Notes under the pieces: model-generated | Database searches by the model: none | What the model saw: the letters and a program-made list of their open reading frames with translations, nothing else | What the model was told of the DNA's origin: nothing | Translations under genes and position numbers: made by a program | Shown: positions 19,020 through 48,471 of the stretch, piece after piece | Position numbering within the stretch: the first letter of the stretch is position 1 | Layout of the letters: each line of letters begins with the position of its first letter | DNA from: Lysinibacillus parviboronicapiens | Lineage (GTDB): Bacteria > Bacillota > Bacilli > Bacillales_A > Planococcaceae | DNA: 64,000 nucleotides | Direction: 5' to 3' | Assembly: GCF_003049575.1 (NCBI RefSeq) | Contig: NZ_PYWI01000006.1 | Coordinates: 62,001 to 126,000 of the forward strand

Positions 19020-19187
19020 TATGGATAAAAGAATATGGAGAAATATGCTTCAAGTGACCACTATTACGCTGAAATTTGGCTGCCGATTAAATAATGTTTC
19101 TTTTTTAGGAAGCGAATGTTACAATTATTGTAATTATAAATGAAGGGACGATGGGTGGCTGATGATTAACTAATCTTATTTTTAGGC

Positions 19188-19325
19188 ATGGAATTTAAAA
19201 TGAATTTCATTGAATTAAAACATAGGATTAGTCTGCCCGTTTTCCATAAAATAACCTATAACCAGGTACTTTGCATGTCTATTCTTTCCTTTAATGTTGC
19301 GCGTATTTTTTGTGTGTTAAAGTAA
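19188..19325 (+). CDS. Candidate leader peptide upstream of vmlR
   Basis: A 45-codon frame from ATG 19188 to TAA 19325; a shorter in-frame version from ATG 19275 gives MSILSFNVARIFCVLK. Neither has a strong ribosome site. It lies in a 450-base untranslated leader ahead of the VmlR-type gene and ends about 85 bases before a terminator hairpin. B. subtilis vmlR is known to be controlled by antibiotic-sensitive attenuation involving a leader ORF, so position and neighbour support a stalling peptide. The coding call itself is tentative. Confidence 0.45.
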   Translation: MEFKMNFIELKHRISLPVFHKITYNQVLCMSILSFNVARIFCVLK

Positions 19326-19410
19326 GAATCTGAACGTGCTAAAGTACAGGATAAACAATGATAAGCTATGAAGTATAGTTTATTTGTGTACGGTTTTTTG
19401 CGACTAATCC

Positions 19411-19439
19411 TTCCAAAAAAATTGGAGGGTTTTTTTGTG
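19411..19439 (+). terminator. Attenuator terminator ahead of vmlR
   Basis: CCTTCC AAAAAAATT GGAGGG followed by TTTTTTT, ending 27 bases before the TTG start of the ABC-F gene. There is no other gene it could serve as an ordinary terminator for within 440 bases, so transcription into the gene must read past it; this fits attenuation control as known for vmlR. Confidence 0.7.
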
Positions 19440-38071: not shown

Positions 38072-38092
38072 AAATAGTAATGATTACGATTT
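38072..38092. promoter_or_regulatory. Zur box of the COG0523 gene
   Basis: Core AGTAATGATTACGATTT matches the Bacillus Zur consensus with about one difference in the left arm; 17 bases upstream of the ATG at 38110, so a bound Zur would block transcription or its elongation. Confidence 0.85.
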
Positions 38093-38109
38093 GGGAGTGG
38101 TTAAAGAAC

Positions 38110-39303
38110 ATGACAAAGAAAATTCCAGTTACAGTTTTAAGTGGTTATTTAGGTTCGGGGAAGACTACCATGATGAACCATGTCCTACAAAATGAGCAAA
38201 ATCTGCGTGTCGCAGTGATTGTCAATGATATGAGCGAAATCAATATTGACGCTGAGTTAATTGCGAATGGGAGTGGTATTTCACGAACTGAAGAAAAATT
38301 TGTAGAGCTATCAAATGGCTGTATTTGCTGTACATTACGTGAAGATTTACTGCAAGAGGTAGAGCGTCTCGCAAGGCTTGGGAATATAGATTATATTTTG
38401 ATCGAATCGACAGGCATTAGTGAGCCAATTCCAGTTGCACAAACATTTAGCTATTTGGATGAGGAACTTGATATTGACCTCACAAAGTTTTGTCGGCTCG
38501 ATACAATGGTGACTGTAGTTGATGCCAATCGTTTCTGGCATGATTTTCAATCAGGAGAGAGTCTGTTAGCACGTAAGGAAGCAGTAGGTGAATTAGATGA
38601 GCGGGATGTTGCGGATTTACTGATTGACCAAATTGAGTTTTGCGACGTCCTTGTCCTGAACAAATGTGACTTAGTGTCAGAGGTTGAGCTTGCAAGATTA
38701 GAAAGAATTCTACGTGCATTACAACCAGAAGCCAAATTAATTCGGACAAAAAATGGTGTTATAGAGCCAGCAGAAATTTTAAATACAGGACGTTTTAACT
38801 TCGAACGTGTATCTGAATCTGCTGGTTGGTTAAAAGAATTAGAGCTTGGGCATGAAAATCATACACCAGAGACGGAGGAGTATGGCATCACTTCGTTCAC
38901 CTATCAGCGTAGAAAGCCATTTCACCCACTGCGCTTTGTGGAATGGTGTGACAATATGCCAGCATCTATTGTCCGTGCTAAAGGAATTATCTGGAGCGCA
39001 AAACATCAGGAAGTGGCATTATTACTGTCACAGGCTGGCTCCTCCGCAAAAATCGAGCCTGTTTCCTATTGGGTGGCAGCTTTACCTGAAGCACAACAGC
39101 AGGATGTCTTTTTACAAAGCCCGGAAGTATTAAAGGATTGGGATGCGCTATATGGTGATCGTTTGACACAACTCGTCATTATCGGTATTGATTTAGATAA
39201 AAAGGCAATTATACAAGAGCTCGACGCTTGTCTCTTGTCTGATAAAGAATTAAATGAACCATGGGAGAATTTAAAAGATCCATTCAATTGGGAATGGAGT
39301 TAG
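38110..39303 (+). CDS. COG0523 GTPase, zinc metallochaperone (YciC/ZagA type)
   Basis: 397 aa. Walker A LSGYLGSGKTTMM, the COG0523 metal motif NGCICCTLRED (CxCC), Walker B ILIESTGISEP, base motif VLNKCDL and a C-terminal CobW domain (EYGITSFTYQRRKPFHPLRF). YciC/ZagA proteins bind zinc at CxCC and deliver it to client enzymes under deficiency. The Zur box upstream and the divergent C-minus L33 gene support zinc over cobalt as metal. ATG 38110 follows GGGAGTGG; an in-frame ATG at 38080 lies inside the Zur box. Confidence 0.93.
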   Translation: MTKKIPVTVLSGYLGSGKTTMMNHVLQNEQNLRVAVIVNDMSEINIDAELIANGSGISRTEEKFVELSNGCICCTLREDLLQEVERLARLGNIDYILIESTGISEPIPVAQTFSYLDEELDIDLTKFCRLDTMVTVVDANRFWHDFQSGESLLARKEAVGELDERDVADLLIDQIEFCDVLVLNKCDLVSEVELARLERILRALQPEAKLIRTKNGVIEPAEILNTGRFNFERVSESAGWLKELELGHENHTPETEEYGITSFTYQRRKPFHPLRFVEWCDNMPASIVRAKGIIWSAKHQEVALLLSQAGSSAKIEPVSYWVAALPEAQQQDVFLQSPEVLKDWDALYGDRLTQLVIIGIDLDKKAIIQELDACLLSDKELNEPWENLKDPFNWEWS

Positions 39304-39949: not shown

Positions 39950-41032
39950 CTACTCCCTCCATTTAAGTAATACAGCTTCCGCACAGAAGCCGGGACCGAG
40001 AGCGACGAGCAAACCAACATCATCTACTTGACCTTCGTTTAACATAAACTGCTCTAATACATACAACACGGTAGGAGATGACATATTCCCATGACAACGT
40101 AATATTTCCCGAGAAATGTCGGTTTTTTGTTCCGCAAGATACAGTGTGTCCTCGTAGGCTTTCAATACTTTTTTGCCACCTGGATGAGCGATGAAATGAT
40201 TGAGTTGTTCACTGTATAGCTGTTGTTCTACTAAAAATTGTTCGATGAATGGGCCAAGCCATTTCGTAATAATAGAAGGAATACTCTTCTGAAAAATGAC
40301 ATGTAGACCGTTGTTTTTGATATTCCAGCCCATTACATTTTCAGAATCTGGCATCCATTTAGAACCAGTATTAAGTATAGAAGGTGTTGGCTTTTTTGTA
40401 GGTATTGTAACGTCATCCCCACAAACGAGAATACATGCGGCACCATCGGCAAATAGAGAGGCACCTATTAAATTACTTTTTGAAAAATCATTTGGCTGAA
40501 AGGTTAAGCTGCAAAGTTCGACACAAACAACAAGTACTTTTGCTTGGGGATGTGCCTGACAAAAATCATAGGCTCGACTGACACCCGCTGCTCCACCAGC
40601 GCAACCAAGACCCCAAAGTGGAATGCGCTTTAGTCTGTCTGAAAAGGACAGTTGATTCATAACGCGGGCATCAATACTTGGTGTTGAAATGCCCGTACTA
40701 CTAACAAAAATAATCGCATCAATTTCCTCAGGAGAAATCGGTGTTTCTAAGAAAGCTTCATTTTGTAAACAGGCTTGTATAACTTCAACACTGTATGTTG
40801 TTGCCAGTTCAATATATAAGTTGTTCCGTTCTTCAAAAGTATGCTCAGTACGATGCCATTCAGCTGGTACACAGAAATGGCGAGACTCAATACCACCGCT
40901 GTCAAATACTTTTAAATAACGTTCTAATTTTGGGATTTTTTTATAAAAAAGTTCCTTTGTTAGCTCTTCAGCATTTGCCTGATATAAAGTATAAGGTGGT
41001 TGATATGTACTGATGGAAACGATTTTCGACAA
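39950..41032 (-). CDS. bpsA: Type III polyketide synthase (BpsA/BcsA)
   Basis: 360 aa chalcone-synthase-fold enzyme. The catalytic Cys is in IPLWGLGCAGGAAGVSRAYD; the His and Asn are in NHFIAHPGGKKVL and CHGNMSSPTVLY. BpsA condenses fatty acyl-CoA with malonyl-CoA to form triketide alkylpyrones, which are then methylated by YpbQ; the product is a membrane lipid-like compound. TTG start with AAAGGAG before it. First gene of a two-gene operon reading away from the leader of the GTPase gene. Confidence 0.93.
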   Translation of the reverse strand: MSKIVSISTYQPPYTLYQANAEELTKELFYKKIPKLERYLKVFDSGGIESRHFCVPAEWHRTEHTFEERNNLYIELATTYSVEVIQACLQNEAFLETPISPEEIDAIIFVSSTGISTPSIDARVMNQLSFSDRLKRIPLWGLGCAGGAAGVSRAYDFCQAHPQAKVLVVCVELCSLTFQPNDFSKSNLIGASLFADGAACILVCGDDVTIPTKKPTPSILNTGSKWMPDSENVMGWNIKNNGLHVIFQKSIPSIITKWLGPFIEQFLVEQQLYSEQLNHFIAHPGGKKVLKAYEDTLYLAEQKTDISREILRCHGNMSSPTVLYVLEQFMLNEGQVDDVGLLVALGPGFCAEAVLLKWRE

Positions 41033-41108: not shown

Positions 41109-41137
41109 TTGACAATTTCAAAAGATTTCGATATATT
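41109..41137 (+). promoter_or_regulatory. Strong sigma-A promoter of the rsgA-paralogue leader
   Basis: TTGACA (41109-41114), exactly 17 bases, TATATT (41132-41137); places the start of transcription near 41144, about 340 bases before the GTPase start codon. Confidence 0.85.
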
Positions 41138-41170
41138 GGAAACAATTAATTGGAAAGTAGGTGATGTGAC

Positions 41171-41245
41171 ATGATGAATAGATCTGTTTTTAACGTACTG
41201 CAATTCGGTTTGTTCAATTTCACACGCCTAAAATTTACATGTTGA
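41171..41245 (+). CDS. Candidate 24-aa leader peptide
   Basis: ATGATG at 41171 after AGGTGATGTGAC; 24 codons containing SVFNVLQFGLFNFTRLKF and ending Thr-Cys-stop. It lies about 27 bases into the predicted transcript, followed by a small hairpin and then a perfect intrinsic terminator, all before the GTPase gene. That order is the hallmark of ribosome-stalling attenuators. Expression of the peptide is inferred, not seen. Confidence 0.6.
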   Translation: MMNRSVFNVLQFGLFNFTRLKFTC

Positions 41246-41249
41246 CCTT

Positions 41250-41279
41250 GTTTTGTAGCTAGTTAGACTTCTACAAAAA
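41250..41279 (+). promoter_or_regulatory. Leader hairpin after the leader peptide
   Basis: TTTTGTAG / CTACAAAA with a 12-base loop, immediately downstream of the leader stop codon; could be a pause or anti-terminator part. Confidence 0.5.
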
Positions 41280-41316
41280 TAAGCATACTTGTACTTTCCC
41301 TTGAACGTGCCTGTGA

Positions 41317-41357
41317 AACCTTGTAACTGCTGAATTGCAGTTACAAGGTTTTTTATT
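41317..41357 (+). terminator. Attenuator terminator in the rsgA-paralogue leader
   Basis: Perfect 14-bp stem AACCTTGTAACTGC / GCAGTTACAAGGTT with loop TGAATT and TTTTTATT after it. No gene ends just upstream on this strand, so it must limit transcription coming from the promoter at 41109. Confidence 0.88.
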
Positions 41358-41485
41358 GTTTCAGCGCTAGTAAGGTTTTTTAGACACTGGAAAAATAAAG
41401 CTTCGGTTGATGCATAGATGTTTTGTGCACAAATAGGCCGAAGTGTAAATAATAAATAACATGCATATATCAGGAGGAAAACAAA

Positions 41486-42559
41486 TTGAATTTAACAACT
41501 TTAGGATTTTCAACATATTTTGAAGAGCAAATGATTGCATTTAACGAGGAGTCAAAATTAGCTAATTGTGTTCCAGCAAGAGTGACTTTGGAGCATAAGC
41601 ACGCTTATCGTGTGCTGGCTGAAGAAGGTGAATGGTTAGCAACGATTGCTGGTCATTTAGCTTATAATTCGCTAGCACGAGAAGATTTTCCAGCCGTTGG
41701 GGATTGGGTGTTGGTCGAGAAAATGGCAGGCGAGGAAAAAGCGATAATTCATAAACTATTTGAACGAAAGTCTGTCTTTTCGCGCAAGGTTGCAGGTCGA
41801 GAAATAACGGAGCAAATTGTAGCATCCAATGTCGATATTGTACTTCTTGTGATGAGCTTAAATGCAGATTTTAATATACGTCGTTTAGAACGTTATTTAA
41901 TCGCTGCCTGGGATTCAGGTGCGAAGCCAATTATTGTACTGACAAAGGCAGATTTATGTGACGATGTTGAGAATATGTTGCGTGAGGTCGAGTCTGTCGC
42001 GTTTGGTGTAGACGTTGTTGTGACTAGTGCTTTATCAGGTGAAGGCTTATCAGATATTCATGCCTTTTTTACTGAGGGAGTGACAGGTGCAATACTTGGC
42101 TCTTCCGGTGCTGGTAAATCTACATTAACGAATGCACTTTGTGGTGAGCAACTTATGAAGGTTTCGGGTATTCGAGAGGACGATGCAAAAGGTCGCCATA
42201 CAACGACACATCGTGAGTTAATCGTATTACCTAGTGGCGGGTGTTTAATTGATACGCCTGGAATGCGCGAGCTGCAATTATGGGATCAAGGAGATAGTTT
42301 ATCTTCAAGTTTTAAAGATATTGAAGAACTATCAGCAACATGTCGCTATCGAGATTGTACGCACCAAGAGGAGCCGCATTGCGCAGTTCAGCAAGCGATT
42401 ATAGATGGAGTACTCGAAAATTCGCGTCTACGGAGCTACTTTAAATTGCAAAAGGAACTCGCATTTATGGAGCGTAAAACAAATACTCAGGCAAAATTAA
42501 ATGAGCAGCGTAAATGGAAGCAAATTTCGAAGGGCTTGAAGAAAGGTAAAAAGAAATAA
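41486..42559 (+). CDS. rsgA: Ribosome small-subunit-dependent GTPase (RsgA paralogue)
   Basis: 357 aa, circularly permuted GTPase: an OB-fold at about residues 30-80 (VLAEEGEWLATIAGHLAYNS), base motif VLTKADLCDD, then P-loop LGSSGAGKSTLTNALCG, switch GRHTTTHRELIVLP, G3 IDTPGMRELQ and a zinc module CRYRDCTHQEEPHC. RsgA checks late maturation of the 30S subunit and releases assembly factors. The gene is not in the usual prpC-prkC-rsgA-rpe context and is longer, so it is likely a second copy (YjeQ2-like). It follows a leader with promoter, short peptide and terminator, implying control by translation status. TTG start after CAGGAGG. Confidence 0.9.
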   Translation: MNLTTLGFSTYFEEQMIAFNEESKLANCVPARVTLEHKHAYRVLAEEGEWLATIAGHLAYNSLAREDFPAVGDWVLVEKMAGEEKAIIHKLFERKSVFSRKVAGREITEQIVASNVDIVLLVMSLNADFNIRRLERYLIAAWDSGAKPIIVLTKADLCDDVENMLREVESVAFGVDVVVTSALSGEGLSDIHAFFTEGVTGAILGSSGAGKSTLTNALCGEQLMKVSGIREDDAKGRHTTTHRELIVLPSGGCLIDTPGMRELQLWDQGDSLSSSFKDIEELSATCRYRDCTHQEEPHCAVQQAIIDGVLENSRLRSYFKLQKELAFMERKTNTQAKLNEQRKWKQISKGLKKGKKK

Positions 42560-42567
42560 TCATGAAG

Positions 42568-42609
42568 GAACATAGATATCAATGAAAATATCTGTGTTCT
42601 TATTTTTTT
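42568..42609 (+). terminator. Terminator after the GTPase gene
   Basis: GAACATAGATAT / ATATCTGTGTTC followed by TTATTTTTTT. A second small palindrome ACGCCTAT / ATAGGCGT (42613-42635) follows in the fosB control region. Confidence 0.88.
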
Positions 42610-42682: not shown

Positions 42683-43108
42683 GTGCAGATACAAAATATC
42701 AATCATTTATTATTTTCAATTTCTAATTTAGATAATTCCATAGCATTTTATAAACATATCTTTGATGCAAAATTATTAGTGAAAGGTAAAAACACAGCTT
42801 ATTTTGATCTTCACGGGCTATGGCTTGCCCTAAATGTAGAGAAGGATATCCCGCGCAATGAAATTCATCAGTCGTATACACATATAGCATTTTCAATCCA
42901 TGAACGTGATTTCGATAAAACGTATGACAAGCTTGTCAATTATGATGTCAATATTTTGCAAGGAAGACAGCGAGATGTACGAGATAAAAAATCCATTTAC
43001 TTTACTGATCCAGATGGTCATAAGTTTGAATTTCATACAGGTACTTTGCAAGATAGATTAGAGTATTATAAAAATGAAAAACAGCATATGGAGTTTTTTG
43101 ATGAATAA
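42683..43108 (+). CDS. fosB: Metallothiol transferase FosB (fosfomycin resistance)
   Basis: 141 aa glyoxalase/VOC-fold enzyme nearly colinear with B. subtilis Fos[66 protein letters not shown]. The metal ligands are in INH, YTH and the Glu of FEFHTG. FosB opens the fosfomycin epoxide with bacillithiol, a cytoplasmic thiol of Firmicutes. The GTG start follows TAGGAGTG. A gene this close to the Bacillus form is probably an intrinsic resistance determinant rather than an acquired one. Confidence 0.95.
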
Positions 43109-44059: not shown

Positions 44060-44345
44060 TCTATAGAAAAGCGTTGAGAAGGAAAAGTAAATTGGATAAG
44101 CATTTAATAGAGAGCCTCTGCTGGTGGAAATGAGGTAAATGAACCCATTTGAAAATGACCTTTGAGCTTCGTACCGAAAGCTTTCACAAGTAGGCTACGA
44201 CGAGATGGGCACTCGTTACAACAGCAGCAGTATCTCTTATATGTGGATGTACTGATTGAGGCAAATAGTTTGAGCTATTTGTAAATATAGGTGGTAACAC
44301 GGGTATACTCGTCCTAATCAGTAATGATTAGGGCGTTTTTTTTAT
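44060..44345 (+). promoter_or_regulatory. T-box riboswitch (probably Met) controlling methionyl-tRNA synthetase
   Basis: Leader of about 285 nt with the T-box sequence TAGGTGGTAACACGGG (44288-44303) and a terminator CGTCCTAATC / GATTAGGGCG with eight T. The candidate specifier in the long stem I (around 44153, GAAAATGACC) includes ATG, agreeing with the downstream tRNA synthetase. Uncharged tRNA-Met would pair with specifier and T-box to stop the terminator forming. Confidence 0.85.
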
Positions 44346-44445: not shown

Positions 44446-46080
44446 ATGACAATTATTATTGGCGGCGCTTGGCCATATGCAAATGGCTCTTTGCATTTAG
44501 GTCATATTGCTGCATTATTACCTGGTGATATTTTGGCTAGATATTACCGACAAAAAGGCGAGAAAGTTTTATATGTTTCTGGTAGTGACTGTAATGGTAC
44601 GCCTATATCAATTCGGGCAACGCAGGAAAACACCACGACACAGGCTATTGCCAATAGATATCATGATGAATTTACACAATGTTTTCAGGAGCTAGGGTTT
44701 ACCTATGATCTGTATACAAGAACCGATGCTAAGCACCATCATGAATCCGTGCAGACAATTTTTCTACAATTATTAACCAATAATTATTTATATAAGAAGA
44801 AGATTGAGCAGGCATATTGTGACACGGATAAGCAGTTTTTGCCTGATCGTTTTGTAGAAGGAACTTGTCCAAATTGCGGTGCGAAGGCGCGGGGAGATCA
44901 GTGCGATAATTGTTCGGAAATTTTAGATCCGCTTGATTTAATCGATAAGCGCTGTAAAATTTGTGGGAATGAGCCAGTAATTCGAGAGACAGAGCATTTT
45001 TATTTTACCTTCAGTCAATTTCAGGGAAGGCTTGAGAGTTATTTAGCTGAGGCAAAGCTGGAGAAACGTTGGCGCGATAATGCGTTAGCTTTAACAGAGC
45101 GTTATTTGTCCGAAGGTGTACCTGATCGTGCAGTAACAAGGGATTTACCGAATGGAGTAAACGTACCAGTACCTGGTTTTGAAGGAAAGAAAATCTATGT
45201 GTGGATAGAAGCTGTGGCTGGTTATTTAACTGCAAGTATTGAATGGGCTCAACAGCACGATGTGGCCATCGAGGACTTATGGAATGAAGATACAATCTCG
45301 TACTATATACATGGCAAAGATAATATACCATTCCATACTGTTATTTGGCCCGCTGTTTTAATGGGTATAGGGGCGAAGGCATTACCAACACATATTGTTT
45401 CGAATGAATATTTAACATTAGAGAAACGAAAACTATCGACCAGTCAAAATTGGGCTGTATGGGTTCCTTATATATTAAGCCGCTATGATGCAGATTCAAT
45501 CCGCTATTTTTTAACAATGAATGCACCAGAAAATCGTGATACTGATTTTTCTTGGCGCGAATTTATCTATAGTCATAATGGTGAGCTACTTGGCGCATAT
45601 GGTAATTTTGTCAATCGTACATTGAAATTTTTAGAAAAGTCCTTTAACAGTCAAGTCCCTCAGGCTGAGGTGGATGGAGCTGTAAGAAAGAAGACCATTC
45701 ACTTGTTTAGTGAGGCCGCAATTGATATTGAAGCGGGGCATTTTAAGCAGGCTTTAGAGGCGATTTTTGAATACGTTCGCGCAGCAAATCGCTATTTTGA
45801 TGAGCAACAACCGTGGTTGCAAGTCAACGAAGACGTGGAGGCAGGAAATAAAACACTTGCAACATGCGTCTACATTATTGCCAATCTTAGTCAGCTACTG
45901 CAACCATTTCTACCGTTTTCGGCTGGGAAAATTCGAGATGTGTTAGGCATACAGGAAGTAATGTGGCATGAGCAAGTGGAACTGCCAACTGACATTAGAG
46001 AGGTAACACCACTGTTTGACCGTCTTGATATTGGTTTAATTGAAGAGGAATATCAAAAATTAGTAAATGACAGTCAATAA
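44446..46080 (+). CDS. metG: Methionyl-tRNA synthetase, second (MetRS2/E. coli-like) type
   Basis: 544 aa class I synthetase: HIGH motif [13 protein letters not shown], a four-Cys zinc knuckle ([16 protein letters not shown] and CKICG), the tRNA-anticodon region near WEAVAGY-type [16 protein letters not shown], and KLSTS at the KMSKS position ([12 protein letters not shown]). It lacks the C-terminal EMAP/tRNA-binding domain. The zinc double knuckle and KLSTS fit the second MetRS type found next to the normal one in B. anthracis and some streptococci, which resists MetRS inhibitors. The standard enzyme is presumably elsewhere in the genome. T-box-regulated; GAGGGGAGC before the ATG. Confidence 0.93.
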
Positions 46081-48177: not shown

Positions 48178-48471
48178 AAAAAACCCGTCTCTATATAAAA
48201 TATAGAGACGAGTTTTTGCTCGCGGTACCACTCTAATTGACCTTTTCTTTACAGAAAAAGTCCCCTTATCAACAGCTATCACTGTTTATCCCTATAACGG
48301 GGGAATCCGACATCCCTTACTTTAGCGACGTCCATTGACGAAGTTATAGTTCAGGGAGTAGCTCATGGACGAGTTCAAAATGTGTGCCTACCGGTTTACA
48401 CCAACCACCGGCTCTCTACAAGTACACAGGCATTTCTACTATTTCCAATCTAGGCCTACAATGTGTTGTTG
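48178..48471 (-). promoter_or_regulatory. T-box riboswitch (Leu) of leuA
   Basis: Minus-strand leader with the T-box AGAGTGGTACCGCGAGC near 48225 and a terminator CGTCTCTATA / TATAGAGACG with T run near 48181-48214. The specifier loop reads GAACTCGTCC near 48370, with CTC for leucine, matching leuA. Uncharged tRNA-Leu is expected to turn the gene on. Confidence 0.92.

Follow-up and report, generated by a model that had tools for sequence, protein, structure and literature searches.

The locus raises the question of how the expression of an RsgA-family GTPase gene is decided when the gene lies behind a promoter of its own, a short open reading frame and an intrinsic terminator. The window, which here means the whole 64,000-nucleotide stretch of Lysinibacillus parviboronicapiens DNA that was analysed, had been read in the earlier note as containing a leader-peptide attenuator, and the individual elements named there were all present on the forward strand. 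The promoter (41109-41137) is composed of the -35 hexamer TTGACA (41109-41114), a 17-base spacer and the -10 hexamer TATATT (41132-41137). The leader ORF of 24 codons, MMNRSVFNVLQFGLFNFTRLKFTC (41171-41245), runs from the ATG at 41171 to the stop codon TGA at 41243-41245 and is led by a strong Shine-Dalgarno (SD) sequence, AGGTGAT (41159-41165). An 8-bp hairpin, TTTTGTAG/CTACAAAA (41251-41278), is located 3' of the leader stop codon, and the intrinsic terminator, ACCTTGTAACTGC-TGAATT-GCAGTTACAAGGT with T6 (41318-41354), has a perfect stem at 41318-41349 and six T at 41349-41354. The GTPase gene (41486-42559, 357 amino acids) starts with TTG at 41486, preceded by the SD sequence AGGAGG at 41472-41477. 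The upstream gene for a type III polyketide synthase or chalcone-synthase-like protein (39950-41032) is on the reverse strand and divergent from the GTPase unit, in agreement with the earlier note that nothing else reads into the leader. No Rfam cis-regulatory family, T-box or other, matched above its gathering score within 41109-41485 or in the leaders of 13 further loci. Elsewhere in the window, Rfam detected a T-box leader (44065-44319, forward strand, 125.5 bits) that precedes a methionyl-tRNA synthetase homologue (44446-46080, forward strand, 544 amino acids), a second T-box leader (48201-48461, reverse strand, 138.1 bits) and a match to the Bacillus sRNA ncr1575 (19130-19437, forward strand, 97.1 bits).

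The deduced product of the controlled gene matched PF03193 at 8.3e-53 and TIGR00157 with 172.9 bits (cut-off 100). Both the permuted G motifs and the zinc site C-x4-C-x-H-x5-C are intact, placing the protein in the RsgA (YjeQ/EngC) family of circularly permuted GTPases, and its relatives of solved structure are RsgA/EngC proteins. The genome carries three homologues, and the other two are 47% and 32% identical to the GTPase of the window. Judging from its length and context, the shorter, 32%-identical homologue is presumably the housekeeping RsgA; the GTPase of the window is an RsgA paralogue, which may help stressed or immature 30S subunits. Upstream of the other two homologues, the frame stays open over 113 of about 133 codons (L002) and over 159 of about 170 (L003). 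These regions thus read as coding, and no leader of such a kind was seen there. On the downstream side, the GTPase gene is adjoined by a homologue of FosM/FosB-type fosfomycin-resistance bacillithiol transferases (42683-43108, forward strand; NF038306, 255.6 bits, cut-off 255), and a 14-bp hairpin with a T run at about 42566-42609 probably divides the two units. The window also encodes a CobW-type GTPase (38080-39303, forward strand), whose matches to NF038288 (ZigA; 510.5 bits, cut-off 600) and, more weakly, to the ribosome-hibernation model MRF (182.2 bits, cut-off 375) are both below the cut-offs.

The earlier note had pointed to other Lysinibacillus genomes as the place to look for the same leader and terminator ahead of the gene. 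Indeed, the leader DNA was found in 30 of the 32 genomes of the genus, and the same 30 genomes carry the GTPase (best E ≤1e-200); in the other two, neither the leader DNA nor the GTPase was detected (no protein match at 1e-60). The leader frame was intact in all 30 loci carrying it, with 24 codons in 28 of them and 28 codons in two. Codons 9-20 except codon 16 were almost invariant in the genus, synonymous sites included, and the peptide QFGLF-x-FTRL was nearly invariant. The variable sites of these leaders were distributed evenly over the three codon positions (8, 9 and 8). The spacer between leader and terminator, in contrast to the frame, varies by indels that abolish the 8-bp hairpin, and hardly any spacer is left in L029. 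The hairpin, proposed earlier as a part of the switch, is therefore real in the window but probably lies outside the switch, and it was rejected as a component because it is not conserved even within the genus.

Loci beyond the genus were collected by two routes. A search of the 261 family genomes with a sequence-only leader model gave matches in 62 of them at E ≤0.01; 20 of the matched loci were fetched, and other weak model matches stayed outside this sample. Fifteen of the 20 lie before the same GTPase and were kept. The remaining five were dropped ahead of all counts: the matches at L076 and L083 look like chance, and those at L078-L080 are partial matches of model R1 at the start of another conserved gene, presumably mcsB-like. 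A protein search at the family or order level detected a GTPase homologue at 1e-60 in 212 of the 261 genomes and 17 of 19 genera, among which some weaker matches near 1e-100 may represent a more distant paralogue. From this list, 40 upstream regions were hand-picked for genus spread; five of these 40 genomes also had a leader-model match at the leader, and one more (G102) had a chance match elsewhere. The resulting set comprised 85 loci from 14 genera, namely 30 of the genus, 15 from the leader model and 40 from GTPase homology, so that 45 were found by leader similarity and 40 by homology of the gene product; the other 126 of the 212 positive genomes are outside the locus counts.

An SD-led short ORF was present in all of the 40 upstream regions chosen by GTPase homology. 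With ORF candidates pre-filtered to 14-40 codons, an SD-led ORF of 19-31 codons and a predicted intrinsic terminator ahead of the GTPase gene were found at 85 of 85 retained loci in the 14 genera, and the ORF had exactly 24 codons at 54 of them. Shuffled leaders kept such an ORF of 19-31 codons 19% of the time, and the other two frames were open across the ORF span in just 8 and 17 of the 85 loci. The promoter was recovered with at least 9 of 12 matches at 83 of the 85 loci, as compared with 91 of 425 shuffled upstream regions. An additional locus, L181 (genus g4), also showed the uORF and the terminator and is outside the counts. The conservation of leader codons anticipated by the earlier note thus held within Lysinibacillus and failed between genera, where the peptide reads, for example, MAIIIVPIVNSIGPILSPAVLLS, MTNVYAIVNKRFGLSNFTHLKVRS or MAILFSRTQIQSIVPHSVYR while the RNA pairings described below stay.

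These pairings between the leader ORF and the terminator are an element absent from the earlier note. Region 2a, GCAATTCGG (41200-41208, codons 10-13), has its complement in the loop of the terminator and the bases flanking this loop (region 3a, 41330-41338). Region 2b, GTTCAA-TTTCACACGCCT (41212-41229, codons 14-20), may pair, according to the folds and the swap test, with either of two partners: region 1, AGGTGATGTGA (41159-41169), which includes the leader SD and doubles as the 5' strand of a putative anti-antiterminator, or region 3b, CGTGCCTGTGAAA (41306-41318), together with the 5' arm of the terminator. Within region 2b, GTTCAA-TTTCACACGC is complementary to the sequence before and within this 5' arm. 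In three loci of the genus, L007, L009 and L011, region 2a reads GCATTTCGG and the terminator loop CCGAAATGC, and this change in an otherwise unpaired loop is most simply explained by the pairing with the leader. Matched changes on both sides were found across genera, as in GCCATTCAGC/GCTGAATGGC, GCGATTTGG/CCAAATCGC, GCAAATCGG/CCGATTTGC, CAATCCGG/CCGGATTG, GATCGGAC/GTCCGATC and CGAATCAG/CTGATTCG, and some terminator loops have an extra base (L006, L021 and L064).

The pairing of regions 2 and 3 was evaluated by a swap test, in which the leaders were combined with their own terminators and with those of other genera and the duplex energies were compared. Averaged per genus, no more than 6% of the cross-genus swaps did as well as the native pair in each of the two directions, and this applied to 13 of the 14 genera; the exception was genus g11, in which 31% of swaps were as good in one direction. 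In a covariation scan that tested every leader column with every terminator column in 43 loci (at most four per genus, drawn from the 85), the top 8-column helix was the pairing of region 2a, codons 11-13, with the terminator loop. This helix scored 2.96, whereas 30 row permutations gave no more than 0.96; its outermost column pair was too gappy to score. Comparison and covariation thus support an antiterminator that is mutually exclusive with the terminator, with g11 weak in one direction. The swap test was weaker for the pairing of regions 1 and 2, with genus means of 0-23% and 0-39% of swaps as good. The hairpin between the SD and the leader had a predicted energy of -22.2 kcal/mol, as compared with -16.0 kcal/mol for shuffled leaders (mean z -2.4, below -1 in 74 of 85 loci), and its sequence differs between genera in a partly matched fashion.

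On these grounds of comparison and folding, the locus is probably a ribosome-controlled transcription attenuator with the logic of vmlR, one that would detect ribosomes arrested during initiation or immediately afterwards. Three structures would compete. The anti-antiterminator (1:2) would join the leader SD region to leader codons 16-20, the antiterminator (2:3) would join codons 10-20 to the pre-terminator stretch and to the 5' arm and loop of the terminator, and the terminator itself (3:4) would compete with both. In growing cells, ribosomes would complete the leader, 1:2 would re-form, the terminator would follow and the GTPase gene would be off. A ribosome held on the SD, the start codon or the first six or so codons, possibly by inhibitors of initiation or early elongation or in a defective initiation complex, would cover region 1 and free region 2, which could then capture region 3 before the terminator is complete, letting RNA polymerase read into the gene. 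We infer both the induction by stalled ribosomes and its inducer: given that the genera differ in the peptide, any block that acts on initiation or on the first few codons would be expected to trigger the sensor. The attenuator proposed in the earlier note thus stands as leader-ORF attenuation, at the level of comparison and predicted structure, with pairings other than the 8-bp hairpin as its likely switch.

The folds, which are thermodynamic predictions with a simple ribosome mask and no kinetics, largely agreed with this scheme. Ribosome-free full-length RNAs were predicted to form the terminator in 83 of 85 loci and to pair the SD into the leader in 82 of 85. For transcripts truncated at the terminator loop, the criterion for an antiterminator was that the leader paired with 40% or more of the 5' half of the terminator. 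With a ribosome on codons 1, 3, 5 and 7, the antiterminator was predicted in 100%, 99%, 98% and 76% of the 85 loci, respectively, but moving the ribosome to codons 9, 12 and 15 reduced this to 5%, 4% and 1%; the codon-by-codon series was also computed for the 30 loci of the genus. Several predictions spoke against the attenuator. A ribosome on the last codon also permitted the antiterminator in 91% of loci. The lenient 40% criterion was passed by 155 of 340 shuffled leaders, although their mean pairing was 0.33 versus 0.79 for the real leaders and their folds had -23.9 versus -38.9 kcal/mol. When the ribosome was placed on codon 1 of the complete RNA, 48 of 85 loci lost the terminator but 37 still formed it, the window's own included, and it was kept in 8 of the 10 individually listed loci, again with that of the window among them. 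Since the complete terminator survives in those 37 loci, the choice between termination and readthrough would have to fall before synthesis of the terminator is finished.

The folds without a ribosome bear on the strongest competing explanation, in which an untranslated leader would give the antiterminator and expression, a ribosome running through the leader would cause termination, and the locus would sense a lack of initiation, that is, too few active ribosomes. In favour of this reading, the antiterminator is the predicted minimum-free-energy fold of the ribosome-free, loop-ended transcripts in 88% of loci and is abolished by ribosomes on codons 9-15. For the attenuator with vmlR logic, the same preference counts as an objection, and the gene could be kept off only if 1:2 forms earlier or the leader is being translated. 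The SD-leader hairpin argues for the attenuator with vmlR logic, since it is more stable than with shuffled leaders, shows partly matched sequence differences from genus to genus and, during transcription, can fold ahead of its competitor; we therefore regard sensing of a mere lack of initiation as unlikely, though as the most serious of the competitors. An ErmC-type arrest, in which a specific nascent peptide and a drug would stall the ribosome late in the leader, would account for the near-invariance of QFGLF-x-FTRL within the genus. A peptide-specific stall is nonetheless made very improbable by the change of the peptide between genera with the RNA pairings kept, as well as by the even spread of variable sites over codon positions and by the block that ribosomes on codons 9-15 impose on the antiterminator, and an arrest peptide was rejected as the main constraint on the leader. 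That an ordinary upstream terminator stands behind a chance short ORF, with the GTPase expressed by constant partial readthrough, is scarcely credible in view of the leader-terminator covariation, the kept frame and the recurrence in 14 genera.

Leader-ORF attenuators mark genes that are needed when translation is blocked, and the targets of the known ones are mostly genes for resistance or biosynthesis. In erm leaders, ErmK-type transcription attenuation included, mutually exclusive hairpins are set by the position of the ribosome in the leader ORF, as proposed here; unlike the present leaders, they depend on peptide-specific macrolide stalling and control an rRNA methylase. Leaders of the ErmC and cat type are defined by a conserved arrest peptide, and no such peptide was found across the genera compared here.

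The vmlR gene encodes an ABC-F resistance factor of Bacillus subtilis and is induced by lincomycin and retapamulin and also in a cshA deletion strain with a ribosome-assembly defect (PMC9226507). The likeness is one of logic: in both cases, a uORF lies in an anti-antiterminator, a stall at an early codon would free an antiterminator, and an intrinsic terminator is present (PMC9226507). The vmlR leader differs in that its uORF has 3 codons (MIN) and that the SD of vmlR is partly sequestered in a hairpin (PMC9226507); the leaders here, unlike that of vmlR, have 19-31 codons, their own coding sequence would be the antiterminator strand, and an RsgA-like GTPase is the target. A NusG pause motif (TTNTTT) in the leader-terminator interval, as in vmlR, was also considered and dropped, being found in 26 of 85 loci as compared with 19% of shuffles, and in two of the 30 loci of the genus. 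The bmrB-bmrCD system of B. subtilis shares a translated small ORF, alternative stem-loops and transcription under ribosome-targeting antibiotics, and differs in the terminator inside the bmrB coding region, the transporter target and control by AbrB (PMC4191407). In toiL-topAI of Escherichia coli, a stall in the uORF likewise switches the downstream RNA structure; tetracycline holds ribosomes at the start codon of toiL, and retapamulin also induces (PMC12121999). That system acts on translation with Rho-dependent termination and has a toxin-antitoxin target (PMC12121999). The mechanism would be of a known kind; the novelty, as far as seen, lies in the target, in how long the leader is and what it does, and in how deeply the arrangement is conserved. 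The earlier note knew of no described attenuator of an rsgA gene, and this agreed with our searches, which, in the parts of the open-access literature they reached, found none, the leader peptide string included.

The GTPase homologue was also found outside the family. At E ≤1e-105, it was detected in 53 of 250 genomes of the class, family members included. In other Bacilli, 23 of 30 loci matched the SD patterns of the uORF, patterns that had been chosen after a first look at the data; the uORF of L176 runs into the gene. Among Bacillaceae-type genomes (Cytobacillus, Priestia, Fictibacillus, Heyndrickxia, Lederbergia and others), a uORF and a terminator were present in 21 of 26 loci, a set in which the rule probably took the wrong frame at L216. 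GGGCTG occurred in 12 of the 21 Bacillaceae-type terminators, and CAGCCC in the leader of 4 of 7 loci among those listed. The swap test was weak in this group, with means of 27% and 37% of swaps as good, and the wider spread of the uORF is therefore taken as a lead only. In Brevibacillus-like genomes, terminators were mostly not seen between the uORF and the GTPase gene, and pairing between the leader and the intergenic region suggests an output other than termination there. Eleven loci of Brevibacillus-like genomes and other Bacilli (L153-L155, L157, L159-L161, L171, L177, L178 and L184) have a uORF with the SD AAGGAGNGATG before the GTPase gene. In L154, L155, L160, L161 and L184, the end region of the leader contains CCTCCTT, complementary to its own SD, and no terminator was seen before the gene; such leaders may be a translation-attenuation version. 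Two Heliobacterium loci, L262 and L264, showed SD-led ORFs of 13 codons about 117 bases before the GTPase homologue. It is a tentative extension, which we hold to be somewhat doubtful, that a peptide-independent sensor of initiation-stuck ribosomes serves one RsgA-like orthologous group throughout the Bacilli, with the Brevibacillus-like uORF perhaps acting on translation.

The coding sequence of the leader seems to be constrained by RNA pairing rather than by the peptide, and an attenuator held by covariation before a paralogue of a ribosome-assembly GTPase hints at the purpose of the GTPase and makes this purpose testable. By analogy only, stuck initiation complexes would be the condition under which the RsgA-like GTPase is produced. 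If the Bacilli-wide extension is true, the GTPase would be a stress-inducible ribosome-protection or 30S-repair factor, and possibly an intrinsic antibiotic-tolerance factor, and a feedback loop would be closed in which defective 30S initiation calls for a 30S-maturation GTPase.
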